DNA of 64,000 nt from Brasilonema angustatum HA4187-MV1 (GTDB taxonomy: Bacteria > Cyanobacteriota > Cyanobacteriia > Cyanobacteriales > Nostocaceae), in NCBI GenBank assembly GCA_019359695.1, contig JAHHGV010000017.1, positions 62,001 through 126,000 on the forward strand, in the 5' to 3' direction. Below the pieces are notes generated by a model. The model was not told the DNA's origin. It saw only the letters and a program-made list of their open reading frames with translations, and did not search any database. This document shows, one piece after another, positions 26,845-58,637 of the stretch (position 1 is its first letter; each line of letters opens with the position of its first letter). The translations under genes were made by a program, and so were the position numbers.

Positions 26845-28293
26845 ATGAGTGGGGAAAGTATTGTGGTCAAGCAAATAGCAAGTCAAAAACACCAGAGCAG
26901 CTCAAATAAATTACAACAATCCTCAAATGGGGTAACACTCACAAACCAAAAAAGTATTTCTCGTAAATTCGTATCTTCGGGTTCTGTTCCCAGCCAGCTG
27001 TATCATCGGCTGGGGTTAGCCATGCCTCGATGGCTTTTTTGGGTATTGACAATTGTTGTAGGAATGACCTTGTCGGGTTTGCTGGTATCGAGTTTGGCAC
27101 TTTGGACTCCACTGTGGAGTGACATTGATCGAACAGATGAAGAAGTAGGATTGGGTGGGAAAGACCAAAAAATACCTCTACCAGGGGAGCTGTGGAGTAA
27201 CATTTCACAATATCACCTCACTCGACCAATGAATATTTTGGTCATGGGTATTGAGCCAGTACCTGGCAGTGTAGATGGAACTCCCGAAAGTTTTGCAGGT
27301 CATAGCGATACGATACTGCTGATACGACTCGATCCAAGCAACAAAACAATCCGGGTACTTTCTATCCCTAAAGATACCATGACAGCTATTCCAGGAAAAG
27401 GATTAACTAAGGTATCTGATGCCAACGCGCAAGGAGGTAAAGTTTTAGCAGCGCGGGTTGTCAGTCGTACTCTCAGTAATGCACCTATTGACCGCTATAT
27501 TCGTATTTCTACCAGTGGGTTACGACGCCTAGTGGATCAGTTGGGTGGAGTAGAGGTTTTTGTTCCTAAACCAATGGTTAACAAAGATCCTGCAACACGA
27601 TTTTCGATTAACTTAGTCAACGGCTGGCAAACACTCAATGGTGAACAGGCAGAACAGTTTGTGCGGTTTCGCGAACCAGGTATGGGCGATTTGGAAAGAG
27701 TCCAGCGACAGCAAGCACTTTTGGTGGGATTGCGCGATCGCCTAAACAGTCCTACTGTTTTACCCAAATTGCCTCAGATCATCCGCGTTATGGGAAGGCA
27801 CTTCGACACTAACCTCAAGCTGGAAGAAATGATGGCAATAGTGAACTTTACTTTGAATATAGAGCGAGATAATTACCAGATGACCATATTACCTGGAATT
27901 TTCAGCCGTCTGAGCCAAGATCCGAGTAGCTATTGGTTGGATCTGACTGGGCGAGTTGACTTGCTACAAGATTACGCTGGGGTGACAATAGGGGGTGTGT
28001 CCTCAAGTGTCAAACCGCCCGCTAGCCTGAAAATTGCCATTCAGAATGCTTCTAGAAAACCTCAACTAACTCAAAAAGTTATCAATAATCTTAAACAGCA
28101 AGGATTTACAAAAGTTTACGCTATACCAGATTGGTCTGATAACCGAAGCGAAACTAAGATTATTGTCCAAAAAGGCAACCGACAAGCAGGAGAACAATTA
28201 CAAAAAATCTTAGGTTTGGGTCAGGTTGAAGTGTCCGCGACGGGCGATCTAGAATCTGATATCACAATCCGGATTGGTAAGGATTGGAAGTAG
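26845..28293 (+). CDS. LytR-CpsA-Psr (LCP) family glycopolymer ligase
   Basis: 482 residues. A disordered N-terminal tail and one membrane helix (about 62-86) place the rest outside the membrane. The LCP domain (about 145-330) shows GHSDTILLIRLDP, IPKDTM and the conserved Arg/Asp-rich FVRFREPGMGDLERVQRQQALL. A LytR_C-type domain follows (about 395-482; LKIAIQNASRKPQLTQKV, then IVQKG). Such enzymes transfer lipid-linked glycopolymers to peptidoglycan. It ends at a good hairpin terminator. It is divergent from manC. Confidence 0.92.
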   Translation: MSGESIVVKQIASQKHQSSSNKLQQSSNGVTLTNQKSISRKFVSSGSVPSQLYHRLGLAMPRWLFWVLTIVVGMTLSGLLVSSLALWTPLWSDIDRTDEEVGLGGKDQKIPLPGELWSNISQYHLTRPMNILVMGIEPVPGSVDGTPESFAGHSDTILLIRLDPSNKTIRVLSIPKDTMTAIPGKGLTKVSDANAQGGKVLAARVVSRTLSNAPIDRYIRISTSGLRRLVDQLGGVEVFVPKPMVNKDPATRFSINLVNGWQTLNGEQAEQFVRFREPGMGDLERVQRQQALLVGLRDRLNSPTVLPKLPQIIRVMGRHFDTNLKLEEMMAIVNFTLNIERDNYQMTILPGIFSRLSQDPSSYWLDLTGRVDLLQDYAGVTIGGVSSSVKPPASLKIAIQNASRKPQLTQKVINNLKQQGFTKVYAIPDWSDNRSETKIIVQKGNRQAGEQLQKILGLGQVEVSATGDLESDITIRIGKDWK

Positions 28294-28307
28294 TTATTAA
28301 TCATAAG

Positions 28308-28340
28308 TCATTTGTCCTTTGTTGGGGACAAATGATTTTT
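28308..28340 (+). terminator. Rho-independent terminator after the LCP gene
   Basis: TCATTTGTCC pairs with GGACAAATGA across an 8-base loop and is followed directly by TTTTT. It stands 14 bases past the LCP stop codon. Confidence 0.8.
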
Positions 28341-28360
28341 GACAAAAGACCAAGCACAAC

Positions 28361-28459
28361 ATGATGAAACAAATCCTACTTCGTATATTGGGATTAATTA
28401 TGATTTGGGTTCTTGCCTGGTTATGGGTGCTGCTTTACGCTAGTCCAGCTTATGGTTAA
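28361..28459 (+). CDS. Very small hydrophobic protein (32 aa)
   Basis: ATGATG starts a 32-codon frame reading MMKQILLRILGLIMIWVL, then AWLWVLLYASPAYG and a stop. It has two basic residues, a hydrophobic helix rich in Trp, and a C-terminal A-S-P-A-Y-G that resembles a signal-peptidase site. It could be a single-pass membrane microprotein or a relic signal peptide. It lies after a terminator and has no clear ribosome site, so it remains tentative. Confidence 0.4.
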   Translation: MMKQILLRILGLIMIWVLAWLWVLLYASPAYG

Positions 28460-28642
28460 CTGATGGGCAAGTGCTTCACAATTATAAAATAAATCGAAGC
28501 TGCTAGGTGTACACTCAGAATAGGATACCCAATCTAATTGGCTAATCAAGTATAAAGATAAATTATAGGTTTTTAGCAATTAATGATTTTTAAATTAAAT
28601 AAAATAATAACAGTAAAATCTATAAGAAATCAAGAGTAGAAT

Positions 28643-29926
28643 ATGAAAATTTCGTTTTTAAACAAAAATTCAGGATTCATCGGACAAAAAATTCAACAAT
28701 ACTTACAGGCTGGTAACAAACGGTTCCTGAGTACACCAGAAAGAGCACTATTAGAAGCTTACGAGGCTGCTCAAAGAATTAGAAATATTGAGATCGATCA
28801 GTTTAATGGTAAAAAAATTACACCTTATTTAAGCAACTACACTGACAGTGTCAGGGCTTATTGGCAGGTTTCTCTTAACAAGAACTTAATGATTATCAAG
28901 GCAAAATTAGCAGAGTTCCGTTTAAGTTCTTCTCTGTTGAATATGTCAAGTTCTGCTTTTTTAGAGAAACTAACTTTTATTGATGAGGTGAGCCTCAAAT
29001 ATAATTTAGAACAAGAATTAAATCAGGACGGGATAACACCAGTCTCTCAACCATTAGAAATTAACCGTGACGAAGTTAATAACCAGTCAGATTCATCTGG
29101 TGTAAACAATATAAAAGGTGACCCTCTTTTTAATAAAACAGGTATATTTCCTAGATCAATTGGAAGAACATTAAATAGAATTAAAGCAGATTTTTCGCCG
29201 GAAGCAGAACAACAATATATTAGAAATTTTCAAAGTTCTAGAAAGAGAACAAGAAGTGCTGTCAGATTTTTGGTAATCCTAGTTATTGTGCCGCTCTTAA
29301 CTCAGTATCTCTCTAAACAATTCTTAGTTAGTCCAATTGTAGAGCGGATAAGAGGCGAAAATCTAAGTCACGTTTTCCTCAACTATGAAATGGAAGAAGA
29401 AGCTTTGACAGAGTTAAAAACTTTTGAAGAAAAATTAAAGTTTCAGAGCCTAATTAGTAAAGCACCACCACTTTCTTCAGAAGCCGTAGAGGAAAAAGTA
29501 AAAAATAAAGTCCACGAAATTGCTGAAGAATTTAAAGAGAAAGGCAATAGCGCTATTAGCAATGTTTTTGCTGATTTGCTGTCACTTGTAGCTTTTGCAT
29601 TCGTAATTGTTACAAGCAAAAGAGAAATTGCAATTGTGAAATCTTTCATGGATGATGTTATCTATGGTTTGAGTGACAGTGCTAAAGCTTTCTTGATTAT
29701 TTTATTCACAGATATATTTGTCGGATTTCACTCACCACATGGTTGGGAGGTGATTCTTGAAGCATTTGCGGAACATTTAGGGCTTCCAGCACAAAAAAGC
29801 GCAATATCTCTTTTTATTGCCACTTTTCCTGTGATTTTGGACACTATTTTTAAATACTGGATATTCCGCTATCTGAGTAAATTGTCTCCTTCAGCCTTGG
29901 CGACAATGAAAGAAATGAACGAGTAA
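28643..29926 (+). CDS. pxcA: Proton extrusion protein PxcA (CemA family)
   Basis: 427 residues. The soluble N-terminal half includes STPERALLEAYEAAQRIRNIEI; the C-terminal half has the CemA domain with about four membrane helices (RFLVILVIVPLLTQYLSKQF; SLVAFAFVIVTSKREI; FLIILFTDIFVGFHSPHGWEV; LFIATFPVILDTIFKYWIFRYL). HSPHGWE is the family signature. It is needed for light-dependent proton release and inorganic carbon uptake in cyanobacteria. Length is normal. Monocistronic. Confidence 0.93.
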   Translation: MKISFLNKNSGFIGQKIQQYLQAGNKRFLSTPERALLEAYEAAQRIRNIEIDQFNGKKITPYLSNYTDSVRAYWQVSLNKNLMIIKAKLAEFRLSSSLLNMSSSAFLEKLTFIDEVSLKYNLEQELNQDGITPVSQPLEINRDEVNNQSDSSGVNNIKGDPLFNKTGIFPRSIGRTLNRIKADFSPEAEQQYIRNFQSSRKRTRSAVRFLVILVIVPLLTQYLSKQFLVSPIVERIRGENLSHVFLNYEMEEEALTELKTFEEKLKFQSLISKAPPLSSEAVEEKVKNKVHEIAEEFKEKGNSAISNVFADLLSLVAFAFVIVTSKREIAIVKSFMDDVIYGLSDSAKAFLIILFTDIFVGFHSPHGWEVILEAFAEHLGLPAQKSAISLFIATFPVILDTIFKYWIFRYLSKLSPSALATMKEMNE

Positions 29927-30227
29927 TAAGCTGTGATTATGTAATTTTTCATACTTATGTATGAGGATGTTCCTTAGTTCTGGTAAGTTAATCCAAACCG
30001 AATTATCTTCAGTAACTAGTATAGATGACAACTGTTCTGGGGGATTTATGGTTGCTGACTTATCTCGTTCCATTTGCGTGTATGCAACGGAAAAGCACTA
30101 TAAGTGCGCGTGCAGCAAAGCAGCAGCGCTAGCCCCGGAGGGGCGCTACGCAAACGCTATCGCCAAAAAAAATTCTGATATTCCTCTAAATTTGTGTTAA
30201 ATAAGTTATTGATTTAGAGGATATTCT
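29927..30227. other. Intergenic region with dispersed palindromic repeat
   Basis: About 300 bases. A GCTAGCCCCGGAGGGGCGCT module stands near 30128-30148. A short ORF through here lacks coding character. Confidence 0.4.
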
Positions 30228-30833
30228 ATGCATTTTGATTTAGTAGAAACAATAAAGTCTTTAGGCTACTTTGGAGTATGGGCAATTGTATTTGCAGAGT
30301 CTGGGTTACTGATTGGCTTTTTTCTACCTGGAGATAGTTTGCTATTTACTGCTGGATTTATAGCATCTGTTCCGCAATCACCGCTTAATATCTGGATTCT
30401 CATCATTGGCGCTTTTCTTGCTGCAGTACTTGGTGATAATGTCGGTTATGCGACTGGATACAAATTTGGTCGTAGGCTCTTTCAAAAAGAAGATTCATGG
30501 TTATTTCATAAAAAACATTTGATCTCAACAACCAAATTTTATCAAAAACATGGTAAAAAAACGCTTATCTTAGCTCGATTTGTTCCAATTGTGCGGACTT
30601 TCGCGCCCATTATTGCTGGCGTTGGTAGCATGGATTATCGCACATTTATGTCCTATAACTTGATTGGTGGGTTTCTTTGGACATTCGGCATCACTCTGTT
30701 AGGATTTTTCTTAGGAAAATCTCTACCAGCTGAACAGCTAGATAAGTATTTGTTACCCATTATTGGATTAATTATTGTTGTTTCTTTATTGCCATCAATT
30801 CTTCATCTTATTAAAGAAAACAAGAATAAATGA
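30228..30833 (+). CDS. DedA-family (VTT-domain) membrane protein
   Basis: 201 residues. There are five hydrophobic segments with the DedA/VTT landmarks: FAESGLLIGFFLPGDSLLF, GAFLAAVLGDNVGYATGYKFGRRL, then the F..ARF.P..R motif (LILARFVPIVRTFAPIIAGVG) and YNLIGGFLWT. The family consists of putative lipid scramblases or transporters in the cytoplasmic membrane, needed for envelope homeostasis. Normal length; monocistronic. Confidence 0.93.
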   Translation: MHFDLVETIKSLGYFGVWAIVFAESGLLIGFFLPGDSLLFTAGFIASVPQSPLNIWILIIGAFLAAVLGDNVGYATGYKFGRRLFQKEDSWLFHKKHLISTTKFYQKHGKKTLILARFVPIVRTFAPIIAGVGSMDYRTFMSYNLIGGFLWTFGITLLGFFLGKSLPAEQLDKYLLPIIGLIIVVSLLPSILHLIKENKNK

Positions 30834-31167
30834 CGGAGAAGGTTTAGAGGATGTTTGAGAAGTATAAAATATTTTGGTCGAGCCCCTCTTTGTCCCCCCC
30901 TTAAAAAGCTATCCATTACCCGCATCTTTCTCAACATTTATACAACTTATACCATTTCTTTGTGAGGATGCGCCAAATTTTCTTGACTTCTTCTTTCTTT
31001 GTGTGCTTTGCGCCCTACCCTGCGGGAAGCCGCTGCGCGTCTACGCGGTTCGTTCCTCATATAATTGGGCGCATGTTCATACAGAATTGGTATTAGTTAA
31101 AATATGCCAAAAACATTGATAGGTATAGTTTTTGAGAGAAGAGAATATTTGCGGGTAATAGTGGATC
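30834..31167. other. Intergenic, repeat-rich, up to the IS4 remnant
   Basis: It carries a GCGGGAAGCCGCTGCGCGTC hairpin module (31020-31040). The left end of the IS4 element must lie here, but no clear terminal repeat can be seen because the right end is lost. Confidence 0.4.
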
Positions 31168-31446
31168 ATGGAAAAATGGGCTTCAGTTGAATTAAAACAG
31201 GCAGATTTAGGAGACACAAGACGAAACAAGCGTCTAGTAAGGATCGTAGAAGATTTGGCAGTACAACCAAGCAGTAGCGTACCTCAAGCCTGTGGAAACA
31301 TAGCCGCAACCAGCGCAGCATACGATTTTTGGAACTCACCCTACTTTCAGCCAGATGATATACCTAACGCCCATGTAAAAAGCACAGTTGCTCGAATCAA
31401 AGAACATGATGTGGTGTTGATGATTCAGGACACGACGAGTATATAG
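31168..31446 (+). pseudogene. IS4-family (Tn5-like) transposase, N-terminal fragment
   Basis: 92 residues. MEKWASVELKQADLGDTRRNKRLV is the typical N-terminal DNA-binding domain of Tn5-like IS4 transposases, followed by VPQACGNIAATSAAYDFWNS and the start of the DDE core (MIQDTTS, with the first catalytic Asp). The frame stops at the first bases of the IS630 element. I could not find the rest of the core after the IS630 right end, so the C-terminal part has been deleted. Confidence 0.85.
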
Positions 31447-31451
31447 GACTC

Positions 31452-32075
31452 CTATTTGATTTTTGAAAAAACTCCGTACATCCCAAGAGTGGGGAAATCA
31501 AAGGTAGTGTGTCGAATAAACCACTCAAACATCCACTTCAAATGCGAGAATTTTGGAATCAAGGCGCAGAAACGTCGAACCCATGTTTTAGCTTGCAACC
31601 AAATATCCTCAATTGGATTTTGTTCTGGACAATTGGGAGCAAAGCGAACGCAGTATATTTGCCATTGGTTGGTCGGTAGTCCTTGATTAATCTCATCCAA
31701 AAAACCTCGAACTTGTTTGGAACGGTGATACATCGCACCATCCCAAAAAATCAGTAATCTCTGGTTGGGGGACTGTGTTAGAAGATAGCGTAGATAATCA
31801 ATAGTCGAATCTGAGTTTCCTGCATCGTAGGCTTTGAGCAATAATTATCCTGTAATATAGTCTACTGCCCCATAGTAAGTTTGTTTATTTCGCTCATTTA
31901 CAACTGGAACCGCAATTTCTGAGTCTGTTTTCCCCCAGACATAGCCGCTTAAGTCTCCCCACATTAAATGGCACTCATCAATTAATAGTACTCTTAGCTT
32001 TCGTGTTTGGATTTTGTAGCGGTGGTTTGCCAACAATGACTGAATCTCTTTTTTTTTCTGCAACAGCTTCTGCAT
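31452..32075 (-). pseudogene. IS630 transposase, DDE part (OrfB), with a nonsense codon
   Basis: The frame gives LLIDECHLMWGD (first Asp), then after an in-frame TAA at 31845-31847 continues LLLKAYDAG, LIFWDGAMYHRS (second Asp) and CPEQNPIEDIW (Glu). All DDE residues are present, so one base change to TAA has split the protein. It overlaps OrfA by about 98 bases in a +1 frame. Confidence 0.8.
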
Positions 32076-32556
32076 CGGCTTTCGGATTTAGCTTTGTTGT
32101 TTTCTTCCAACTGATGTCAGCTGCATCGAACAAGTCATAGTAACTTTGTTTTGACTCATAAACCAGGTCGTATTCAAAAGCTAACTTATACTCTAGTTCT
32201 CCAAGCTCCCAACAGTCCTTGGTTTGCAACCATCTCAATACTTCTTCTCGTTGTTCGCTACTCAAGTAGCTTTTCTTCCCTTTGTAGTTTAACCGTAGTC
32301 CATCAACTCCATCTTGCTCATAGGCTTGTTTCCAACCTGTTATCGAGCCTAAAGACACATCTAAAATAGTTTGGATTTCTTCGTACAAGTAATCTTGGTA
32401 AACCAACTTGACCGCCAAGGCTTTTCTTGCCTCACGGGCATCACGACAACCTGCGATAAAATCCTGTAACTCCGCGATACGCTTTGCGTCAAGCCTCCGG
32501 CTTATCGCAGTTGCCACTACAGGGCGTGTTGCCGTTTGTAGATCCTGATTGGTCAT
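31978..32556 (-). CDS. IS630 transposase N-terminal part (OrfA, HTH)
   Basis: 192 residues with a winged-helix/HTH region (YEEIQTILDVSLGSITGWKQAY, then GVDGLRLNYKGKKSYLS) as in IS630/helix-turn-helix 23-type transposases. It meets OrfB at a run of nine A (complement of 32049-32057), a likely slippage or +1 frameshift site. The downstream DDE half has a nonsense codon, so the full transposase cannot be made. Confidence 0.8.
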   Translation of the reverse strand: MTNQDLQTATRPVVATAISRRLDAKRIAELQDFIAGCRDAREARKALAVKLVYQDYLYEEIQTILDVSLGSITGWKQAYEQDGVDGLRLNYKGKKSYLSSEQREEVLRWLQTKDCWELGELEYKLAFEYDLVYESKQSYYDLFDAADISWKKTTKLNPKADAEAVAEKKRDSVIVGKPPLQNPNTKAKSTIN

Positions 32557-32626
32557 TGTCTACTCTTACACTTGTACACTTATCCGTATTTTCTCGTGAT
32601 TTTTTTCAAAAATCAAATAGGATTTT

Positions 32627-33173
32627 TATATTAGGAATTATTGTCTTCAATCATCGCTACTTAAATCTTTCTTTAGATTTATTTGCCTGTTATTAAAAGT
32701 CATACATAAGTCTGAATCGATGTAAATTTTTTTGTGTTGATGAATACAAATCCTAAATGGTAATTTTCTGTCTTATCAACGAAAAACTAGTAATTATCCC
32801 CATAATCCGATGTGGTTGTGGGGTTTTGTTTTTGGTAGACAAGCACCTCATTCCGTAGCCAAGCCTTATCCAATAAATAGTTCTTCCAGGATGAGCTAGT
32901 ATGGGTTTGTTTTTAGCGGTGCGGTAGTCACGGCTGTTTTTGGGTATAGACGCGTTGCAGGCAATTTTAGCAGGTATATCCCAAAACTAACTAATCAACG
33001 GTTACTTAGTAGGATTTAAGAGGTTACCAACCTTGGAAACCTTTGTAATATTTTATATTGTAGTTAAACAAATAACCCCAGAAATGAAACAGTAGCCTGT
33101 CATGCTGTAGGTAAATCAATAAGACATCACTCATCCTACACTCGGTTTTTTACGAATAGGAAATTAACTGCAA
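32627..33173. other. Intergenic, with a candidate terminator
   Basis: About 550 bases without a gene. CCCCATAATCCGATGTGGTTGTGGGG-type hairpin (about 32798-32823) is followed by a T-rich run, similar in size to the terminators of the array at 34441-35403. Confidence 0.4.
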
Positions 33174-33798
33174 TGGTACATAATTTGCTGAATTACGTGG
33201 TTATCACTTAACAGTTAAAGGACTGCAAACTAAACGTGACAAATTGTTAGAAGAATGGGCAACCACTATTAATCCAGGTGTAGCTGAAATGACGATTGGG
33301 ACAGGTATGTGTTCAAATAAGAAATTTCCGACTAATCTTCAGTCCCTCCAAGGGCTGCGAGTACTTGTTGTAGACGATAATGTCGATTTGTGCGAATTGC
33401 TCGCAGTGTTACTGCAACCCTATGGTGTCCAGGTGCAAACAGCATTTTTAACCCAGCAAGCTTTGAAAATATTTGTGGAATGGCAACCTGATGTCCTCGT
33501 AAGTGACATTGCCCTGCCAAAGGAGGATGGCTATTCGCTGATTCAACAAGTGAGAACCAAAACAGGAGAGCAAGGGAAAGTGGTGCTAGCCATTGCTGTG
33601 ACAGACTATATCAATGAAAGGATGCTTCAACGTGCTCTGTGTGTTGGCTTTGACCTGTGGTTCACCAAACCCCTGGATTTTGATGAGTTCGTTGTTATGC
33701 TTGCCTGTTTAGCGATGACACAACTGGTTTTGGCTCATGCCTCTAGACATGGTGAGCTAAGTCTCGAAAAGCAGTTAGAACTCGAATTCCAAAGTTAG
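33174..33798 (+). pseudogene. Response-regulator (REC) protein with a frameshifted N-terminus
   Basis: The open frame begins only at TTG 33244 (184 residues). Immediately upstream, ATG GTA CAT AAT begins a second segment that would continue ELRGYHLTVKG...TKRDKLLEEW if one T were restored in AATTTG. The copy at 36384 has the extra base. The REC domain is complete: LRVLVVDDNVDLCELL with the acidic pair, LVSDIAL with the phosphorylatable Asp, and the conserved Lys in FTKPLDFDEF. There is no output domain. It may still be translated from TTG; otherwise it is a pseudogene. Confidence 0.7.
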
Positions 33799-33831
33799 TA
33801 TCACCATTTTTGAAAAACTTTCAACAAATCA

Positions 33832-34017
33832 ATGTCATTTGATTCTGGGGATTTTGAAAAAATGTCATTTACTATCAAGTCTGCACACTCCATTTTTGGT
33901 GACACTCAAGTTGCTAATGCAGTTCCAGCTATTGTTGAATCATTCAATCAACTCAGTATTAAGGAGCAGTTGGTTTTACTTTGGTTCATCGGTGAGATGT
34001 TAAGGAAATTACGTTGA
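33832..34017 (+). pseudogene. Orange carotenoid protein N-terminal domain fragment
   Basis: 61 residues. FTIKSAHSIFGDTQVANAVPAIVESFNQLSIKEQLVLLWF aligns by eye with the start of the OCP/HCP carotenoid-binding domain (FTIDSARSIF...AVPATIARF.QL...DQLALIWFAY.EMG). After GEMLRKLR it stops, where the domain should run for another 100 residues; no continuation appears in other frames. It is a truncated remnant of a photoprotective gene, too short to bind a carotenoid. Confidence 0.65.
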
Positions 34018-34142
34018 TGACTATTTCAAATACGACGATGAACACTCAAATTTGAAATCAAACCACAACCACAACCCCAGACATCATCACGGACTTCCAA
34101 GCTTGGTGCGACTAGTACAGCACGGCGGAAATAGAGTTACCA

Positions 34143-34342
34143 TTAAGCAGCCAAAACCTTGCCCTTATAAGTCCACTTAAATGGTTTCGCCATAGTGCGA
34201 TTAAAGTAGTTGATGAAATCTTCGATGCGGGTTTTGAGATTATCTTTGCTATAAAAGCTCGCACGCTTTAGCAATTTACGTACAAGGATACTAAACCAAA
34301 TCTCAATTTGGTTTAGCCAAGAGGAATGTTTAGGCGTGTTTC
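34143..34342 (-). pseudogene. IS630-family transposase C-terminal fragment
   Basis: The minus strand reads HSSWLNQIEIWFSILVRK, then RIEDFINYFNRTMAKPF and KWTYKGKVLAA, stop at 34143. This is the C-terminus of the common cyanobacterial IS630 transposase, including the catalytic Glu in NQIEIW. Upstream codons fall out of frame, so only the end is left. Confidence 0.8.
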
Positions 34343-34476
34343 ATAGAATCAAGCTGACTTAATCCAGTTAAATTGATATCTTGCGGATTTTTCAAAACGG
34401 TAAACTGTGGATGATTGATATCCATACAGCAATAAAAAACGTTGACGTATTGGTCAACACAGTTCTTTGTAACGAG

Positions 34477-34582
34477 CGATTCCTACAATAGACAAGGGTT
34501 TTACAAAAAACGACGTGAGTAATATTGGGACAACAATTACAAATCTCCGATGTAACCCCTAGTAGCAGATCTGGGGGTTTTT
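34477..34582 (+). ncRNA. Array unit 1, predicted small RNA
   Basis: The -35 is TTGACG at 34442, the -10-like CTTTGT at 34465-34470. The terminator stem AACCCCTAG/CTGGGGGTT (34554-34579) is followed by T-residues. The 5' end is inferred. The -10 is the poorest in the array. An unrelated GC-rich stretch (about 34600-34690) separates it from unit 2. Confidence 0.5.
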
Positions 34583-34732
34583 AATTGTAAGCTGTGACGG
34601 TTCCTGTGGCGGCTGTTGTGGACGGGCGCGGTCGGGGCAACTTGGTTGCCCGAATGTCCATAAGCGTGGCCGTAGGGGGCGCTCCAATAGAAAAAGGTTG
34701 ATGTATTGGTCAACACAGTTTATTGTAACTTA

Positions 34733-34837
34733 AATTCCTGCTTTAGAAAGGGGTTTACAAATACGACACTAGTAATATTGGAACGAATACAAGTAATTCG
34801 ACATAATCCCCTAGTAACAGGTCTGGGGATTTTTTTT
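34733..34837 (+). ncRNA. Array unit 2, predicted small RNA
   Basis: TTGATG (34698-34703), 17 bases, TATTGT (34721-34726). The terminator stem AATCCCC/GGGGATT is followed by eight T in all (34831-34837 region). The stem bases differ from unit 3 on both sides, keeping pairing. Confidence 0.6.
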
Positions 34838-34903
34838 ATTGTAAGCAGTGGACAAGGTTATGACGTGGTTGACGTATTGGTCAACACAGTTTATTGTAAC
34901 TTA

Positions 34904-35007
34904 AATCCTGCAATAGACAAGGGTCTTACAAGAAACAACACCTATAGTATTGGAACATATGGGACGTTAATTCGGTATAAACCCTCAGACCGTCACTGGG
35001 GGTTTTT
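34904..35007 (+). ncRNA. Array unit 3, predicted small RNA
   Basis: TTGACG (34869-34874), 17 bases, TATTGT (34892-34897): the best promoter of the array. The terminator is ACCCTCA/TGGGGGT (34981-35003) and TTTTT. Confidence 0.6.
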
Positions 35008-35074
35008 AATGAACAACTGTGGATCAGGTTGTGGCGTGGTTGAGGTATTGGTCAACACAGTTATTTGTAACTTC

Positions 35075-35186
35075 AACTCATGCTTGAGAAAGGGGTTTTC
35101 TAAAAACCCGATAGCTATAGTATTGGAGAAACCAAATGTTTAACAATAACTTGACAGAAACCCTCGGAGCGGCACTGGGGGTTTTT
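35075..35186 (+). ncRNA. Array unit 4, predicted small RNA
   Basis: TTGAGG (35040-35045) and ATTTGT (35063-35068). An internal hairpin GGTTTT-CTA-AAAACC is present near 35094-35108. The terminator is ACCCTC/GGGGGT (35160-35182) and TTTTT. Confidence 0.55.
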
Positions 35187-35253
35187 AATTAAGAACTGTG
35201 GATCAGGTTATGGCGTGGTTGAGGTATTGGTCAACACAGTTATTTGTAACTTC

Positions 35254-35366
35254 AACTCATGCTTGAGAAAGGGGTTTTCTAAAAACCCGATAGCTATAGT
35301 ATTGGAGAAACCAAATGTTTAACAATAACTTGACAGAAACCCTCGGAGCGCCACTGAGGGTTTTTT
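35254..35366 (+). ncRNA. Array unit 5, predicted small RNA
   Basis: Nearly identical to unit 4, but the terminator is ACCCTC/GAGGGT (35339-35361): the G.T pair of unit 4 has become A-T. Six T follow. Unit 6 after it keeps only the -35 region (35398) before a different hairpin. Confidence 0.55.
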
Positions 35367-35410
35367 ATTAAAAAGTATGGATAGGGTTATGGCGTGGTTG
35401 ACGTATTAAA

Positions 35411-35445
35411 AAACCGACAGCCAGCTAAGGAGGTCGGATTTTTTT
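35411..35445 (+). terminator. Hairpin terminator closing the array
   Basis: CCGAC (35414-35418) pairs with GTCGG (35433-35437), then ATTTTTTT. The loop AGCCAGCTAAGGAG is repeated in a weaker version near 35660-35680. Confidence 0.6.
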
Positions 35446-36056
35446 AATTAGGTAAGATAAAATGCCCTCCAGATAGTTTTGGAGGGTACAGAATTAGCTA
35501 CCATCTTTGAAAAATGGGGGCTTTTTTCTACCAGCTATTTGTAATAGTAATTAGATCAAGTTTCCTTTAATTCCCTCAAAAGATTGGGATTTGATTAAGA
35601 ATTTTTGTGCTGGCAAATACACTCGACTAATTAGCCACCGTCTGATCTAAAAAAAACTAACAGCCAGCTATGGTGGTCGTTTTTGAAGTTGAAAATTTCC
35701 GGGGTGTGGCGTGATCGCTCCAACCGGAAGGAGGGCATCTTTCAACGTAGGTGTTTTGTGCAATGTTCATCAAAAAGCCCCTCTATAATAGACTGCAACA
35801 CCTTCAAAATTTCTTTCAGGTACGTTAGTTTATTTTGCAAATATCCCATTAGAGGCGTCTATAAGCCTCATCACAACTAATGTTGTGAAACGCTTACTGT
35901 GTTGGTTTTGCGCTCTGAGAGTAGCGGGTGTGGTGGCGGGAATGGGCGGCGGTAGAATATTTGAAAATAAAAACGATAGTGTGTAGTCTTCTCGGTTGAA
36001 GAATAATTTTTATACCATAAAACGGTTTTTTTAGCATTTTTTTTTAGAATAATTAT
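35446..36056. other. Intergenic, with hairpins, no clear gene
   Basis: CCCTCCA/TGGAGGG forms a hairpin at about 35465-35486. A GGAGGGCATCTTTCAACGTAGG segment (about 35731-35752) is repeated with changes near 37366-37387. I see no convincing ORF. Confidence 0.4.
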
Positions 36057-36302
36057 ATGGAAACAGATTTACATTTAAAATCAAATAAACTATTAAGTTC
36101 TGTTGTCGTTAGACCTGATTTTAGTAGCTTTAACCCGATCAATTCATTCCCAGCTAGGTCACCCGCCAAGACTGGTGGTCTAGAAAATAAGCAACTAGGC
36201 GCTGGCTCTCAAGTAGGTCTGTTGTTTATCAGTGTTTTGTTAGGCATCGTTGTATTAGTACTCGTTACTATGCTGATGCAACAGATGCCATACCCTAGTT
36301 AA
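36057..36302 (+). CDS. Small membrane protein, hypothetical
   Basis: 81 residues. The N-terminal 50 residues are polar and Ser/Pro-rich; residues about 52-74 form one strong membrane helix (GLLFISVLLGIVVLVLVTMLM). No family recognised, no ribosome site seen. It lies between the small-RNA array and the second copy of the ELRGYHLTVK segment, in a decaying region, so it may not be functional. Confidence 0.4.
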   Translation: METDLHLKSNKLLSSVVVRPDFSSFNPINSFPARSPAKTGGLENKQLGAGSQVGLLFISVLLGIVVLVLVTMLMQQMPYPS

Positions 36303-36383
36303 AGCAAGTTGAATTTTTGCCGTGTTTACGGACGATCTACCGAATTGGTAGATTGGCTTTTTACGAATAGGAAATTAATTGCA

Positions 36384-36524
36384 ATGGTACATAATTTTAC
36401 TGAATTACGTGGTTATCACTTAACAGTCAAAACACCGCAAACTAAGTGTGGAAAATTGTTAGAAGAGTTGGCAGCCACTATTAATCCTGGTGTACCACCT
36501 AGACACCATATCTCTCCTAGGTGA
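36384..36524 (+). pseudogene. Second copy of the response-regulator N-terminal segment, truncated
   Basis: MVHNFTELRGYHLTVKTPQT, then GKLLEELAATINPGV: the same segment as upstream of the REC protein at 33174, here in one frame. After PGV the homology ends and the frame closes within 8 codons, with no REC domain. The duplicated DNA spans about 36357-36500 against 33153-33290. Confidence 0.6.
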
Positions 36525-36859
36525 CTCCTGACAGATTGCCAAAACTTAGGTGGGTGAGGGTCAGTTAACAATAGCGCGTCGTCGCCGAGCCACCCTTCAT
36601 AACTCATAATCACCTGCATCTCGATGTGTTTATGGGTGATTTTGGTGTCTGAGAACATTTTTCATCTAAAAAAAAATTGATTTCAAATCTCATATTTGAA
36701 AATGACTGAAATGAACCAAGTATTTATACTTGGATCGATTTCAGCCATCAGACAATCGCTGAAACCCTGATTATCTCCTTCAAAAATTGCTTTTAATAGA
36801 AGCATTTAGCAATAGTTGAAAGTCAAAATCTGCTCCAAAAAATCGAGTCGTCGGGTTTT

Positions 36860-36990
36860 TGGAGCAAAATTTTTGTAGTACACACAGCCTGAAACATTTA
36901 TGGAGAGCTTTTTGAAATGTACTACAAAAATATCGGGCGCAAATTTTGCTTACTCTGGGGATATAGATCCTGCGCCCGATATTTTTTTGT
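36860..36990 (+). ncRNA. Candidate structured RNA with nested stems and terminator
   Basis: ATTTTTGTAGTAC (36869-36881) pairs perfectly with 36919-36931; directly after it ATCGGGCGCA (36932-36941) pairs perfectly with 36971-36980, followed by seven T. Two adjoining perfect stems and a terminal T-run suggest a short structured transcript on the plus strand. No promoter is obvious. Confidence 0.4.
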
Positions 36991-37664
36991 AACTTTAGCT
37001 ACACTTTTTTTGAGTTGACGATAGCAGACGCGGGAGCGAAGCGACCGCGCGGTGGCGGTGCTAATGTTCGGAGTTCGGTGGAATGTTCGGAGTCGCGCGG
37101 GTCAGACGGAAGAATCAGCTTTTGAGATGAGGCAAATGCTAGCGTGCAAATTTGCAAGCACAGGTGATATCAAATCCGTTTATATCGGAATTTTTCCTCC
37201 TTCCTCTCTCTCTCTGTGTCCTCTGCGCCTCTGCGGTTTTTTTATCACTCAGATGCTACCGGATTTGATATGACACCCCAAATTTGATTGATAAGGTAAA
37301 TCTCAAAGAAGTTAGGCGTTCACACAAGTTTAACTTATAAATTTTGGCGGTGACGCCCGACCAGAGGGAGGGCGTCTATCAACGTGGATGATAGCGGCGC
37401 TTGGATGGGGCTGGAAAGCGACCTTTTTGAAAAATGGTATGTTTCTCAATAAACCTACAGCTTATACCATTTCACGAAATCCCTGATACAAATGATTGGT
37501 TTCTAATTCTTTCCCCCTGCTCCGGTGCTCCCTGCTCCCCATTTGTATCAACCTTAAAGTGAAACGGTATTAGTCATTCGCGCTCCAACATCAATAAGTC
37601 TTCAGAAACTACACAAAAGCTGATAGCGTCAAACAAAGAAGAGTCTTTTTGTGGATGTGACAGC
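36991..37664. other. Intergenic region before the ABC exporter
   Basis: A GC-rich repeat patch (about 37025-37115) and CTCTCTCTG/CCTCTGCGCC low-complexity sequence (37200-37240); no gene is supported. Confidence 0.4.
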
Positions 37665-39389
37665 TTGAAAACGCGCTCTAACTATTGGCAGCTTCTACCG
37701 TATATTCGACCCCAATGGCAAACTATCGTTAAGGGGTTCATTGGCATTTTAGGATATGTCCTGGCAACTTTGTCACTTCTGACATATGTGCGTCGATTTG
37801 CAACTGTCTTTGGTGGGGGGGATTTGAAGGCGATCGCCCTACAACTTGCCATCATCGCAGCAGTCTTTCTCGTACGAGGCTTTTTTCAGTCCGTGCAAGA
37901 TATCTACATGGCAAAAGCAGCACTGCGAGTTGCTTTTAACCTCCGTAAAAAAGTTTACTCACATTTGCAAAAGCTCAATCTCAGCTATTTTGAAACTGCC
38001 AAGTCAGGTGATTTATCTTACCGCCTCACTGAAGATATCGACCGAGTTGGGGAAGTTGTGCACAAAGTCTTCCACGACTTTATCCCCTGCATTTTGCAGC
38101 TAGTAGCAATTCCCATTTACATGATTTCTCTGAATTGGCAACTGACATTAGCCATAGTCATCGTTGCACCGTTAATGGGTATTTTAATTGGTTGGTTTGG
38201 TGAACGGTTACGCCGATTCTCTCTTAAAAGTCAAAATCGCATCTCAGACTTATCAGCAATACTCACCGAAGTTGTTAGTGGTATCCGCATAGTACAAGCT
38301 TTTGCTGCAGAAAACTACGAAACTGCCAGGTTTAGTCGGGAAGCAGAACGCACAATGAGCGCGAAATACTCAGTGGAACGGCTCAAAGCAATTCAAATTC
38401 CTATTGTAGGATTCTTAGAAGCTGTGAGTGCTTTAACACTACTATTCGTTGGCGCGGCGCAAATTGCGAATGATAACTTGACGGTGGCAGAGTTTTTCAG
38501 CTACCTGACTGCAGCAGCGTTGTTAATTGATCCTATCGGTCACGTTACGAACAACTACAATGAGTTTAAGCAAGGTGAGGCCTCTGTTGACCGAGTTTTT
38601 GAATTGTTGGCAGTTCAGCCAACTGTGGTAGAAAAATTAGATGCTCTTTTGCTTCCCCAAGTGACTGGTAAGGTGGAATATAGTCGTGTGTCTTTTGCTT
38701 ACAAACCAGGTGAACCTGTCTTAAAAGATATCAGTTTGTTGGCACAGCCGGGAGAAGCGATCGCTCTTGTCGGTGCTTCGGGTGCAGGTAAAACGACTTT
38801 TGTCAATCTTCTCCCCCGCTTTTATGATGCAACTGCTGGTGAGATCTTCATTGACGGCGTTAATATTCGGGATGTTACGCTTGACAGCTTGCGGCGACAG
38901 ATTGGAATTGTTCCTCAAGAAACTATCATGTTTTCTGGAACAATTGCCCAAAATATCGCTTTCGGGCAAGATTCTTTTGAGATGGAAGCGGTAGAGAAAG
39001 CGGCTTCAATTGCTAATGCTCACCAGTTTATTACGCAACTTCCAGATGGTTATCACACATGGGTGGGAGAAAGGGGGGTAAATTTATCTGGTGGACAACG
39101 ACAAAGAATTGCTATTGCACGTGCTGTTTTATTAAACCCCAGAATTCTGATTTTAGATGAAGCCACATCTGCTTTAGATTCAGAGTCGGAAGCTTTGGTA
39201 CAGGAAGCACTGGAACGATTGATGGAGGGGCGAACTGTGTTTATTATTGCTCATCGTTTGAGTACAGTCAGGCGGTGCGATCGCATTTTAGTTCTCGAAC
39301 GCGGGCAAATTGTCGAATCAGGAACTCATGAAGAATTGTTAACGCTTGGGCGTCGCTATGCTAGATTCTACGCGCAGCAGTTTAGTTGA
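37665..39389 (+). CDS. ABC exporter, fused permease-ATPase (MsbA-like)
   Basis: 574 residues, probably from a TTG start because no ATG or GTG fits. The membrane domain (about 15-310) has six helices; the ATPase (about 335-574) has Walker A GASGAGKTT, the Q-loop VPQET, the signature LSGGQRQRIAIARA, Walker B ILILDEATSALD and the switch His in IIAHRLS. It works as a homodimer exporting lipid, peptide or polysaccharide precursors across the cytoplasmic membrane. The substrate is unknown. It is an intact gene amid a decaying region. Confidence 0.92.
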   Translation: MKTRSNYWQLLPYIRPQWQTIVKGFIGILGYVLATLSLLTYVRRFATVFGGGDLKAIALQLAIIAAVFLVRGFFQSVQDIYMAKAALRVAFNLRKKVYSHLQKLNLSYFETAKSGDLSYRLTEDIDRVGEVVHKVFHDFIPCILQLVAIPIYMISLNWQLTLAIVIVAPLMGILIGWFGERLRRFSLKSQNRISDLSAILTEVVSGIRIVQAFAAENYETARFSREAERTMSAKYSVERLKAIQIPIVGFLEAVSALTLLFVGAAQIANDNLTVAEFFSYLTAAALLIDPIGHVTNNYNEFKQGEASVDRVFELLAVQPTVVEKLDALLLPQVTGKVEYSRVSFAYKPGEPVLKDISLLAQPGEAIALVGASGAGKTTFVNLLPRFYDATAGEIFIDGVNIRDVTLDSLRRQIGIVPQETIMFSGTIAQNIAFGQDSFEMEAVEKAASIANAHQFITQLPDGYHTWVGERGVNLSGGQRQRIAIARAVLLNPRILILDEATSALDSESEALVQEALERLMEGRTVFIIAHRLSTVRRCDRILVLERGQIVESGTHEELLTLGRRYARFYAQQFS

Positions 39390-39559
39390 AGTCACTCGCG
39401 CTCGTCGCAAAGCGACGAGCGCGTCTCCGTTTGGCGCAGCCGTGCCGCAGGCTCAGGAGATACGCTAAAATTCAAAATTCACGCATCACCGTTCGCGCAG
39501 CGTGCCCGTAAGCGCAAGCGCACGCGACTTGGGCGAACGCGCAGCGTGTCCGTAAGGAC

Positions 39560-39778
39560 TTACAAGAACGAAATAAGCGCCCCATCCTCTCTAACCTGAG
39601 AGATAGCGGCAGTATTGAGCAAGATGCCGATTTGGTGCTAATGCTTTACCGAGATGATTCTTACAACAATGATACGCAAGATAGAGGAATTGCCGAATTG
39701 ATCGTTGCAAAGCATCGTAATGATCCAACTGGCACTGTCAAGTTGCTTTTTGACTCGCACCTTACGATACTAGTTTAG
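39560..39778 (+). pseudogene. Replicative DNA helicase (DnaB) C-terminal fragment
   Basis: The frame reads RPILSNLRDSGSIEQDADLV, then LMLYRDDSYN, DRGIAELIVAKHRND and PTGTVKLLFD, and stops at 39776. This is the end of DnaB, including the SGSIEQDAD and KHRNGPTG motifs. About 400 N-terminal residues are missing; the upstream junction is a GCGCAGCGTGTCCGTAAGGAC repeat. Confidence 0.8.
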
Positions 39779-39975
39779 AAATTTCTTTCCGTAAAAGTGG
39801 CGCGATACCACGAAGTGGTTGCCAAGGGCATCGCACTTTGATCTAAAATCATCTATCACTTGCCGTAGACGTGATAATGGTACAACTGATCCTGGTACCA
39901 GTACACACAGATGGTACTTGTTTTCAACCTGTGGCACTATTGAAACTGACAGTTGCAGTAGAAAGGACGATCTTG

Positions 39976-41043
39976 ATGAGCACCAGACAGATTGCGCTTG
40001 TCGCAGGTTCGACAGGCATTGTGGGCAAGAACCTTTGCGACCACCTTGTAAGGACGAGCGATTGGACGGTGTACGGGCTAGCCCGCAACCCATCGACAGA
40101 GCAAGGAATCCTTCCCGTTTCGGCAAATCTGCTCGACCGTGACGAACTGAAGTCGGCACTGGTCCAAATCGATGTGACGCACGTTTTTTTCTGTACCTGG
40201 TCTCGTCAGGCTACCGAGCAAGAGAACTGCGATGTCAATGGTGCGATGCTTCGCAACCTGCTTGAGGCGTTGGATGAGGCACCCAGGCTTACTCACGTTG
40301 CGCTTGTAACCGGCACGAAGAATTATCTAGGCTCGTTCGAGACCTATGGACAAAGCAGGTTGGACACGCCGTTTCGGGAGGAGCAGCCTCGTGTCCCTGG
40401 TCTGAACTTCTACTACGTGCTGGAAGATATTCTGTTTGAAAAGGCAGCACAGCGAGGCTTTAAGTGGAGTGTTCACAGGCCATCAACGATCATTGGCTAC
40501 GCACTCGGCAACGCGATGAACATGGGCGTCACACTTTCAGTGTACGCGACTATCTGCCGCGAAACCGGACGCCCCTTTGTCTTTCCCGGCTCGTCCCAGC
40601 AGTACAACAGCTTGGTCGATGTTACCGACGCACGTCTGCTCGCACGGCATATCGAGTGGGCTTCGATTACGCCTGAAGCCGCCAACCAGGCTTTCAACAT
40701 CGTCAATGGTGATATCTTCCGCTGGCGCTGGCTGTGGCCACAGCTCGCGGCATTCTTTGGCATTGAGGCCGCACCTTACCCTGGGTATGCGACTCCTTTG
40801 GCTGAACAGATGAGAGAGGCTGAACCAGTGTGGGATGGTATTGTTGTTCAACACGGTCTCAAGCCGCATTTGTTGACCCAACTTGCCTCTTGGTGGCATA
40901 CTGATGCAGATTTGGACCGGGAAATCGAATGCCTCAACGATATGTCTAAGAGCAGGGGCTTTGGATTTCTCGATTATCAAAAAACGCTGCTGTCCTTCCT
41001 TGATCTCTTCGAGAGATTACGCCACGAGAATATCATTCCTTGA
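39976..41043 (+). CDS. PRISE-type SDR (progesterone 5-beta-reductase-like)
   Basis: 355 residues from the ATG preceded by AAAGGAC. The frame is open for 35 codons more upstream, but that part has no family likeness. The extended-SDR motif AGSTGIVG is near residue 9; VFFCTWSRQATEQENCDVNG, TGTKNYLG, the catalytic-like FYYVLEDILFEKA (Tyr and Lys spacing of PRISE enzymes) and HRPSTIIGYALGNAMN follow. PRISE enzymes reduce activated C=C bonds of enones with NADPH. GC-rich with long ORFs on other frames, so horizontally acquired, probably from a proteobacterium. Confidence 0.85.
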   Translation: MSTRQIALVAGSTGIVGKNLCDHLVRTSDWTVYGLARNPSTEQGILPVSANLLDRDELKSALVQIDVTHVFFCTWSRQATEQENCDVNGAMLRNLLEALDEAPRLTHVALVTGTKNYLGSFETYGQSRLDTPFREEQPRVPGLNFYYVLEDILFEKAAQRGFKWSVHRPSTIIGYALGNAMNMGVTLSVYATICRETGRPFVFPGSSQQYNSLVDVTDARLLARHIEWASITPEAANQAFNIVNGDIFRWRWLWPQLAAFFGIEAAPYPGYATPLAEQMREAEPVWDGIVVQHGLKPHLLTQLASWWHTDADLDREIECLNDMSKSRGFGFLDYQKTLLSFLDLFERLRHENIIP

Positions 41044-41176
41044 AAGCAGCAATTCATCACTTAAGTGGTATGAACAATTGTGTATGTAAGTCGCAGTTCC
41101 TGAGTTTGCAGACTGTTCCTTAAGTACAGAATTTGTCGGACAACTCATCAGGTGGCGTTTTGGCTATTTTCATCCC

Positions 41177-41359
41177 TTAATCCAACATTCCACCCAATGT
41201 GTTGGAGACATGCTTCTGGCGTTGATGACGATTACTGTCGTAGATGGACAAAGTGCGGGCATCGGCGTGACGGCTGAGGGCTTGGGCACCGCGCGTATCA
41301 CCATCAGATGAATTGAGGTAGCTGGTTATCGCGCTATGTCTAATCTGGTGAGGCGACAT
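41177..41359 (-). pseudogene. Tyrosine recombinase (integrase) C-terminal fragment
   Basis: 60 residues. MSPHQIRHSAITSYL has the HxxR box, LSRHADARTLSIYD the second His and the catalytic Tyr of phage-type integrases. The N-terminal domain and first Arg are absent. Confidence 0.75.
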
Positions 41360-41405
41360 AACTTTAGTAATACGAAGTTGCCAAAGATAGTATTGTTACA
41401 TTTCG

Positions 41406-41606
41406 TTATATTGAACACAACCAGGAAAATCCGACTTCTCCTTTGACAGTGGTTGGATTGTTCATCAACCACTGACACTGCTCAATCAAAACGGTCTCTA
41501 AAGAATCGAGGGTATCAAACACTTCATTGGCTAATCGTTCTCTAAGTAATGGCCAGATACACTCGGTAAGGCGCTGTTCTGGGCTCAAACTTCTCTCAAA
41601 ATTCAA
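41406..41606 (-). pseudogene. IS630-type transposase C-terminal fragment
   Basis: 66 residues: LSPEQRLTECIWPLLRERLA, then FDTLDSLETVLIEQCQWL. It resembles the end of IS630 DDE transposases (SPELNPAERLWP...), with the catalytic Glu in TECIW. Only the tail is left. Confidence 0.6.
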
Positions 41607-41800
41607 AAAAAAGATTCTTTAATTTTGAACTTTGTGCAGGAAGGTGGGTTAGTGTGATTGTCTGCTACGAGCATCTAGGAGAACGGATAACAGACGAAAT
41701 CCAAGCTTTTTCTGAGCAATGGAAGCTTTTCGAGATGTGACAGGGGTGACTGATGTGGAGATATTTACCAACCCTTTTACCGACCCGAAAAAGTGTCTTA

Positions 41801-41926
41801 TATCGTGTCCGGTTAAAGACTTATCATTAAGGCTGTAAGGGAGCAGGGGGTAGGGAGCACCGGAGAAAGAGTTTTCAGGTTTTGGCACAGATGCACCGAA
41901 TTATAACTAATTAGGCGGACATGGTA
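41801..41926. mobile_element. 126-bp MITE, copy 1
   Basis: Begins TATCGTGTCCGGTTAAAGA and ends GGCGGACATGGTA; the ends are imperfect inverted repeats (TATCGTGTCCG against TACCATGTCCG). Differs from copy 2 (50290-50415) by only a couple of bases over 126. Such ends are usual for IS630-type elements with TA targets. Confidence 0.7.
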
Positions 41927-42159
41927 TTACCCATATAGATTTGAGGCTTTCAGGTGGATGGAATAACAGCCCCATAAAATGGGGACTTCGACCTGTCCTA
42001 ATTTGGTGACTACTAGACTTAGTTTCTCGTTCCTTTCCAGAGGCAAGGAACGAGAGAATCTCTGATTTTGTGAGTCAGCACGGCGCAGGAGACGGGCGTT
42101 CTCGATAGCCCTCCGGGAACGCCTGTCGCCTGAGGCCACATTCTAAGAAAGCGGGAGGA
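41927..42159. other. Intergenic, dispersed GC-rich repeats
   Basis: The GCGCAGGAGACGGGCGTTCTCG and GGCCTCAGGCGACAGGCG-type modules near 42080-42140 recur near 45125-45260. No gene. Confidence 0.45.
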
Positions 42160-44595: not shown

Positions 44596-45749
44596 ATCAG
44601 ACTGCTAATTTAATTACGTTCAACATTTTTTATCTATTGACAGAGTCTTGAAGTGCAACACACCTGAAATGAAAATCTTATAGATTTGTAAACAATTCTG
44701 TTTTCTTCTCCAAATTTCTGTGAGTGAAGCAGCCACCATTAGTGGTAGTTGTTGCGGTAGATGCACTCTCAGGCGGCTCCTCAAAAATTGTGAGTTCACA
44801 GTGGCTAAGAATTGTTTTAGTGATCAATAGGTTAGATATAGTAAATTTTAGCACCATAACCGTACTCTTAGTTTACCTTACTCTACTCAGAATTCGGAAT
44901 ATCTCCTGCCCAGACACTGCTTTGTATTTCCTCCACCAGAGGCTTTGCATAGCTCCATAACTCCTTAGCAGCAGTTCAACTGGCAGTCCACCACCTGCTA
45001 CGAATGAAAAAACACCTTTTTCTCTTACACCCCTAAACCCTTCGGCCACGCCTTACGGTGAGTCCAGCGCTGCGGGAGGGTCTCCCTCCGGAGCCACTTC
45101 TGTGCGGGGGTTCCCCCCGTTGAAGAATGTGGCGTCAGGCGACTGGCGAACCCGGAGGGCTATCGGGGAGAACCTCCGGTTCCGCTGCGCTTTAGACCTC
45201 TGGGCGTGCGCTTTGCGCATACGCCAGTCGCCGTGAGAGCAGGAGACCCCTTGGGGTTCGCCAGTCGCCTGCGAACCCCAAGGGCAGTGGCTCCCCTACA
45301 CCCCTACACCCCTACACCCTTACACCCTTACACCCCTGTGTTTCTTCACAGAGGTTACGCCAGCACAAAGCGGTCTGGACGATGCGGGCAGTCTGCTCCT
45401 TGGTAAGCGACCTAATTCTTAAACTTTTCGATACCTCTTTAGGAGTAAACTTGACTGGTATAGACTCAAGAATGCTGTTACGTAGTCAATTTTATTGGTA
45501 GATTTTGATTATAGCGGCACGCTTACCAGCCAATAGAGAAAAAAGTTAACACTACTAAACAGGAGGACAGCGACTACTAAAATGCTTCCGTCGATTTTTT
45601 CTATGCGAGAGGTTAGATAAAAGCTAGATATGACAATATATAATTTATAGATACGACCAAATTTAATATTTTCTAATTCCTGCTATCATCTATTGTTAAA
45701 TCTAAATTGCTTATATATTATTAGGTGTAACTTTACTATGGGTTTTACG
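44596..45749. repeat. 1.15-kb repeat-dense intergenic region
   Basis: No gene is supported. From about 45060 to 45340 it is packed with dispersed modules: GCTGCGGGAGGGTCTCCCTC hairpins, CAGGCGACTGGCGAACCC palindromes, and five tandem octamers (three CCTACACC, two CTTACACC) at about 45293-45336. Confidence 0.6.
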
Positions 45750-57329: not shown

Positions 57330-57907
57330 CCGTTTTAGCTACGTGCAAATGGTAATTCATCTTTTACAGTTACCAGTTATCAGTTACCAGTTATCAGTGA
57401 GCCAGCGCTGCCGGAAAGTCTCCCTACCTAGGCGACTGCGTATGCGCAAAGCGCACGCCCAAAGGGCTAACGCGTAGCGTCTCCGCAGGAGATACCCGAA
57501 GGGTTATCAGGTAGGAAACGGACTCGTCCACCCCTTGTTCACTGTTTACTGTTCACTGTTCACTGTTCACTGTTTTAACAAACCATGATAAATCACCAAA
57601 ACAGTTCTGAGCGTTGAGTACTGAGCAGCTACTGCATCTTTGAGTGTGGAGTCGGTCAAAAACTTGACAATTATAGGTGAGACATTTTATTTTTAGGGAG
57701 TGGGTTGAAATTTTATCGACACCACTCGTCCGATCCTTGAAAACCGCATAACTTCGTTGAGTGGTGTCGATTACGCTTGTAGCAAGGTTTCCAGCTTACG
57801 AAATGAGAGTTTTATTGAGAATATTTTTGCCCTTATTGACATTTCAAAAAGTGGTGTCGATTTGGGGGTCTCAAACCCTCTCCTAGTAAGGCTTCTACAA
57901 GTGAACT
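57330..57907. promoter_or_regulatory. Repeat region and probable CRISPR leader
   Basis: 57370-57400 and 57535-57575 hold TTACCAG/TTCACTG heptamers. Near the array, ATCGACACCACTC (57715-57727) is exactly inverted at 57759-57771, and AGTGGTGTCGAT is present again at 57850-57861. If the array is read left to right (repeat ending GGAAAC, decay at the far end), this is its leader. Confidence 0.5.
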
Positions 57908-58595: not shown

Positions 58596-58637
58596 GACTT
58601 ATGCCGCTAATTCCATTGTTAAAACTCACCACTCAAA

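Follow-up and report, generated by a model that had tools for sequence, protein, structure and literature searches.

A tandem array of small-RNA-like genes in Brasilonema angustatum belongs to a dispersed and apparently undescribed multicopy family with a link to a small tyrosine recombinase

We report a real and apparently undescribed family of sRNA-like units, five copies of which lie in tandem in a 64,000-nucleotide stretch of the genome of Brasilonema angustatum HA4187-MV1 (the whole stretch being referred to as the window). The plan of such an array is a known one; its sequence, its distribution and its link to a recombinase gene appear to be new. Related genomes carry more units, some of them beside a recombinase gene, so that the units look like an undescribed and repeatedly copied sRNA family. 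To the reading that they are multicopy sRNA genes of mobile-element origin, which have been tandemly amplified and probably act in trans, we give a probability of roughly 0.55. Each unit would then hold a promoter block, probably bound by a regulator, followed by the gene for an RNA of ~110 nt whose 5' part is conserved and which stops at an intrinsic terminator. Such genes would have spread among Brasilonema and Scytonema-like genomes alongside a small tyrosine-recombinase element, probably together with it; this element may have carried or captured the units before they were multiplied in tandem. The RNA would most likely act in trans, pairing through its conserved 5' part, and the extra copies may raise its dose or diversify its targets, as in NsiR1. 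Because no target was found, we place the trans-acting mechanism itself at about even odds.

A repeat search of the window finds five direct repeats at 34442-35366 on the forward strand with start-to-start distances of 256, 171, 171 and 179 bp, as had been given (five tandem repeats, 171-256 bp apart) in a preliminary description of this DNA. The promoter pattern which it had read in the repeats, a -35-like TTGA(C/T/G)G, 17 bases and a -10-like hexamer, is present in all five units, and the hexamer pairs of units 1 to 5 are TTGACG/CTTTGT, TTGATG/TATTGT, TTGACG/TATTGT, TTGAGG/ATTTGT and TTGAGG/ATTTGT, with a 17-base gap in each. In the five units 108-117 nt separate the end of the promoter block from that of the T-run, and a hairpin (-10.8 to -14.3 kcal/mol) precedes the T-run in every one. 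The parts of the array are as follows.

34442..34470, + strand: unit 1, promoter-like block (TTGACG, 17, CTTTGT), read in the sequence; block kept in the family
34474..34582, + strand: unit 1, RNA body and terminator, putative start; model match of 72.5 bits, hairpin of -14.3 kcal/mol
34698..34726, + strand: unit 2, promoter-like block (TTGATG, 17, TATTGT), read in the sequence; block kept in the family
34729..34837, + strand: unit 2, RNA body and terminator; model match at 34729-34834 of 92.3 bits, hairpin
34869..34897, + strand: unit 3, promoter-like block (TTGACG, 17, TATTGT), read in the sequence and found by consensus scan; block kept in the family
34899..35007, + strand: unit 3, RNA body and terminator; model match of 93.8 bits, hairpin
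35040..35068, + strand: unit 4, promoter-like block (TTGAGG, 17, ATTTGT), read in the sequence; block kept in the family
35071..35186, + strand: unit 4, RNA body and terminator; model match of 86.4 bits, hairpin
35219..35247, + strand: unit 5, promoter-like block (TTGAGG, 17, ATTTGT), read in the sequence; block kept in the family
35250..35366, + strand: unit 5, RNA body and terminator; model match at 35250-35365 of 86.8 bits, hairpin
35398..35407, + strand: beginning of a sixth unit's promoter, truncated (TTGACGTATT), with unrelated sequence after it

Two motifs previously assigned to the RNA bodies need correction: AGAMAAGGGGTTT, said to be common to the units, has an exact match in none of the five, and AGTAWTATTGG is found in units 1 and 2 only, units 3-5 having ATAGTATTGG. 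A simple consensus scan tells little about the array, since it returns three promoter-like sites where 2.4 are expected from shuffling, one of the three being a unit promoter, and five terminator-like sites where 0.9 are expected, two of which are unit terminators and three promoter palindromes. That the repeats are more than chance follows from the recurrence of the units in other genomes and from the covariation of the terminator stem. The neighbours of the array are a receiver-domain protein gene and transposase pieces. Transposase-like remnants, presumably of the IS630 type, lie at window positions 34111-34339 and 31452-32556, with winged-helix domains at 31978-32556, and the stretch 34111-34339 has more than ten copies in genome G003. 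Two dispersed repeats of ~110 bp, at 37165-37273 and 37462-37573, recur many times in the window's genome and in those of its relatives, and a 60-aa frame at 41177-41359 on the minus strand resembles, by eye, a tyrosine-recombinase C-terminus.

The preliminary description had suggested looking for the units in Rfam and in other genomes of the group, and testing them for covariation. Rfam 15 at curated thresholds gives no match in the whole window, and at a loose threshold the array alone gives eight sub-threshold matches, the lowest E being 1.1. Units are found beyond the window by a covariance model (R1) built from an alignment of 38 of them (A1). In the window's own genome (G000) R1 finds eight units, all of which belong to its training set, namely the five of the array and three at G000:C4:48646-49194. 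At E<=0.001 it matches 8 of 217 genomes of the family and 3 of 56 genera (Brasilonema, a Scytonema-like genus and one other), with at least 17 matches in each of G003 and G004, and among 388 genomes drawn from the order it matches the window's own genome only. With the array as a plain blastn query and E<=0.001 as the limit, 6 of 59 genomes are reached, its own included and one of the six through the terminator alone. The plasmid and phage collections searched give no match at 1e-5. A pattern scan of genome contigs gave eight stretches, five of them cyanobacterial; the pattern-scan stretches L067-L069 and the lone viral L075 have no model match at E<=1, and were therefore taken as chance and rejected as members of the family. 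We found no published account of this family in the literature searched, where subscription journals are thinly covered.

When R1 was run at E<=0.02 on 17 sources with wide flanks, 72 matches were obtained and 70 kept. The two that were dropped are minus-strand matches in L087 and L089 (E 0.004) overlying plus-strand units, and two weak matches were retained (L091, 29 bits, with its 5' half replaced, and L087:10579, 38 bits, without a terminator of its own). The 70 units lie in nine genomes (G000 8, G002 1, G003 20, G004 26, G006 1, G011 7, G119 4, G120 1, G115 2), the single match in G002 being a remnant with E 0.011, and form 17 clusters, with sizes of 14, 11, 11, 9, 5, 4, 4 and 3 and nine singles. 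The training set of R1 does not contain 32 of these matches, including all those in G115, G119 and G120. Single copies lie between unrelated genes, and the family is dispersed to non-homologous sites; for the single copy L080, the matching interval measures ~450 bp in the window's genome, which has no unit there, against ~1150 bp in G004. Receiver-domain genes lie near 9 of the 17 clusters, and we give them no weight because this gene family is very common in such genomes.

The conserved upstream block of the units reads GTATT-N4-AACACA-N2-TTTTTGTAA and matches 67 of the 70 units with at most 6 mismatches in 20, and 62 with at most 3, counts which serve as description only because the block was drawn from the same units. 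Specified bases in the block carry 0.7-2.3 bits each, against 0.04-0.62 on the upstream side of GTATT, in the expected place of the -35; the TTGAC -35 that had been put forward as a family feature is only weakly conserved across the units. Given this poor conservation of the -35 region, we propose that the promoter may be a weak one of the sigma-70 type, which needs or is blocked by a regulator. The inverted repeat TTGAC-N6-GTCAA, which had been taken for a possible common operator, has fully matching arms in just two units, 1 and 3, and relatives do not conserve it; a common operator with covarying arms was rejected, the arm matches numbering 319 against a shuffled mean of 328 (1952 of 2000 shuffles were at least as high).

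In the terminator stem, with the structure derived by RNAalifold from the very alignment used for covariation, 97.1% of cells are paired and six of the nine pairs have two-sided changes, in 21 cells; none of 500 shuffles reaches either figure, and 12 of 500 reach the additional pair types. Sliding the terminator partner, as a control, leaves at most 4 pairs and 4 cells for a shift of one column, and at most 4 pairs and 6 cells over the slid versions. This shuffling test bears out the statement of the preliminary description that the stems vary and yet pair. In G003 and G004 the terminator of several copies has decayed or is missing, and many units continue after the T-run with AATTGTAAGCTGTGGATCA or a variant of it. 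The conserved 5' part of the RNA, AACTCCTGCTTTAGAAAGGGTTTTACAAA...ATAGTATTGGAA, is probably mostly single-stranded; a conserved 5' hairpin was rejected, for it can form in 57 of 69 distinct matches, yet has a mean z of only -0.7 and shows no double changes in 18 rows chosen for equal length.

The longest frame through the array, at 34706-35143, has no family-wide conserved protein counterpart, and frame matches between loci fall on the units themselves. A conserved small protein was also rejected, since by eye roughly one in three of the 38 A1 rows lacks the ATG after box 2. Taken with the upstream block, the terminator pairing and the further copies, this lack of a conserved frame gives good support to the earlier proposal of a separate multicopy family, as one that is sRNA-like. 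Among individual copies, those of Scytonema type (L082 18387-18497, L083 and L085 1186-1296) have a frame of ~17 codons after the second box which runs through the terminator hairpin. At L090 14153-14242 a unit without a terminator leads into an open frame of 171 aa for which Pfam has no match, and at L083 17772-18593 (minus strand) a gap of 22 bases separates the end of a single unit from the response-regulator-like frame, 229 aa long, that follows it on the same strand.

NsiR1 is described in Nostoc sp. PCC 7120 as 12 tandem copies, identical or slightly divergent, upstream of hetF (PMC9045159), which are ~60 nt long and have DIF1 promoters (PMC9045159, PMC6133370). That the present array is a divergent NsiR1 array is very improbable, for all that the two share a plan of tandem direct-repeat sRNA genes, in identical or slightly divergent copies with individual promoters, recognised here by sequence only, in a heterocyst-forming lineage (PMC9045159). 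The predicted RNAs of the array are ~110 nt long rather than ~60 nt, the GTATT-N4-AACACA block stands where NsiR1 has DIF1 promoters, and arrays and single copies occur at several loci with a recombinase link, against one described locus. The DIF1 motif TCCGGA has no exact match in the array or elsewhere in window positions 28273-45087, and R1 has no match in 209 of the 217 family genomes, a set which may or may not include PCC 7120. The comparison with NsiR1 made in the preliminary description thus holds for the plan but not for membership, in a comparison that covers length, promoter motif and published descriptions. Multicopy sRNAs as such are known in this group: among the predicted Nostoc sRNAs of Brenes-Alvarez et al. 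(2016), some are reported to exist in several copies that are almost identical. Sibling sRNA families (PMC4211561) also have several related copies per genome, a likeness in plan for which homology is not established.

Both the dispersal to non-homologous sites and a link to a recombinase were missing from the earlier picture of the family. At six loci, a small XerA/XerC-like tyrosine-recombinase gene, or what is left of one, has a unit or the 3' end of one on its upstream side, and these amount to about four independent cases because L077/L085 and L091/L100 are similar pairs. The unit or its end stands directly before the recombinase start in four of the places (L077, L085, L091/L099 and L100) and at a distance, on the same strand as an intact recombinase gene, in L084 (1.5 kb upstream) and L093 (1.3 kb). 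Its tail runs into the recombinase start in L077, L085 and L091, where 33, 26 and 51 aligned residues of the gene remain, and in L100 just the terminator of the unit remains before the recombinase remnant. The recombinase is a Phage_integrase by Pfam (4.4e-25) and XerA/XerC-like by NCBIfam, the best model being the XerA-type NF040815, with scores below all equivalog cut-offs; its solved relatives are the XerC-like 4a8e and XerA 5hxy.

This arrangement in all six places would also suit a unit that is the regulatory leader of the recombinase, made up of promoter, leader RNA and attenuator terminator, in which case the other copies would be leftover or amplified and have no function in trans. In keeping with such a leader, many copies have, after GGAnnnA, an ATG with which a short frame begins, and in some Scytonema-type copies this frame runs through the terminator. 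We nevertheless consider it rather unlikely, as a recombinase of this family lies near only 4 of the 17 clusters, the window's own not among them, as no unit is matched at E<=0.02 in 24 of the 28 recombinase places, and as copies without a recombinase gene retain the promoter block and the terminator. An att-like site resembling CTGTGGATCACAG is common to the recombinase start regions and the unit tails; the recombinases L102 and L109, which share the start region, have TGTAGGCTGTGGATCACAGTG before their start and no unit, which argues against a leader and indicates that the site belongs to the recombinase.

An integron-like system of XerA/XerC type has also been considered, in which sRNA-gene cassettes of ~160 bp would each end in half of the att-like site that precedes the recombinase gene and the arrays would grow and shuffle by site-specific recombination. 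If this were true the cell would have an adjustable bank of divergent regulatory RNAs, but we hold it to be improbable. Three of the recombinases score 26-29 bits on the integron-integrase model TIGR02249, for which the cut-off is 265, and are thus not IntI. The Xanthomonas sRNA-Xcc1, described as lying in an integron gene cassette (PMC12444791, PMC6557892), resembles the present family in that an sRNA gene is tied to a tyrosine recombinase and has dispersed in mobile form, and differs from it in belonging to a true integron with IntI, where here the recombinase is XerA/XerC-like.

The units might instead be a selfish non-autonomous repeat, MITE-like or satellite, whose promoter and terminator signals are incidental and whose RNA is idle. 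Their dispersed and patchy occurrence (8 of 217 family genomes), in repeat-rich intervals and with decayed copies, is what such a repeat would leave, and several copies have partly matching inverted ends, CACAG(C/T)TT ... AA(G/A)CTGTG. The compensatory changes in the terminator speak against this, however, no target-site duplication or transposase was identified, and in two of three syntenic pairs change is slower in the unit than in the tail, so that we regard an idle repeat as unlikely. In the pair L087/L089 divergence is 3.8-7.4% in the unit regions, 12.3% in the 19-base tails and 3.5% in the coding flank, and in L085/L077 it is 2.7-6.7% in the unit regions and 14.5% in the tail; L082/L076 shows no clear difference (unit 0-4.8%, tail 0%, flank 5.2%). 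Two of the three pairs therefore favour constraint on the unit, to which gene conversion could add, or which it could mimic, because array copies are related.

For sRNA genes acting in trans, the recombinase and a nearby response regulator were both tried as targets and rejected on unremarkable duplex ranks among 195 start regions, those of the recombinase start regions being 10 to 180 for seven units. In the stretch examined at window positions 57906-58598 there is a CRISPR-like array, which may extend further, with 10 copies of a ~36-nt repeat (CTTTACAGAACCCTTTCCCTGCAAAGGGATGGAAAC) ~72 bases apart, and a sequence present in many units, GAAAGGGTTTT, also occurs in the reverse complement of one form of this repeat. 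The duplex energy of unit and repeat is reached by 6 of 150 and 2 of 150 shuffles for two repeat forms; since the opposite strand does nearly as well (3 of 150 for the reverse complement of one form), we treat this pairing as only a lead.

If the units are transcribed, they would be the second tandem-array sRNA family in heterocyst-forming cyanobacteria, one that is present at several loci and linked to a recombinase. Their arrays of 1 to 14 copies in close genomes would then offer a view of how sRNA genes multiply and diverge, and would let one ask if sRNA genes can travel as cargo of a recombinase element.
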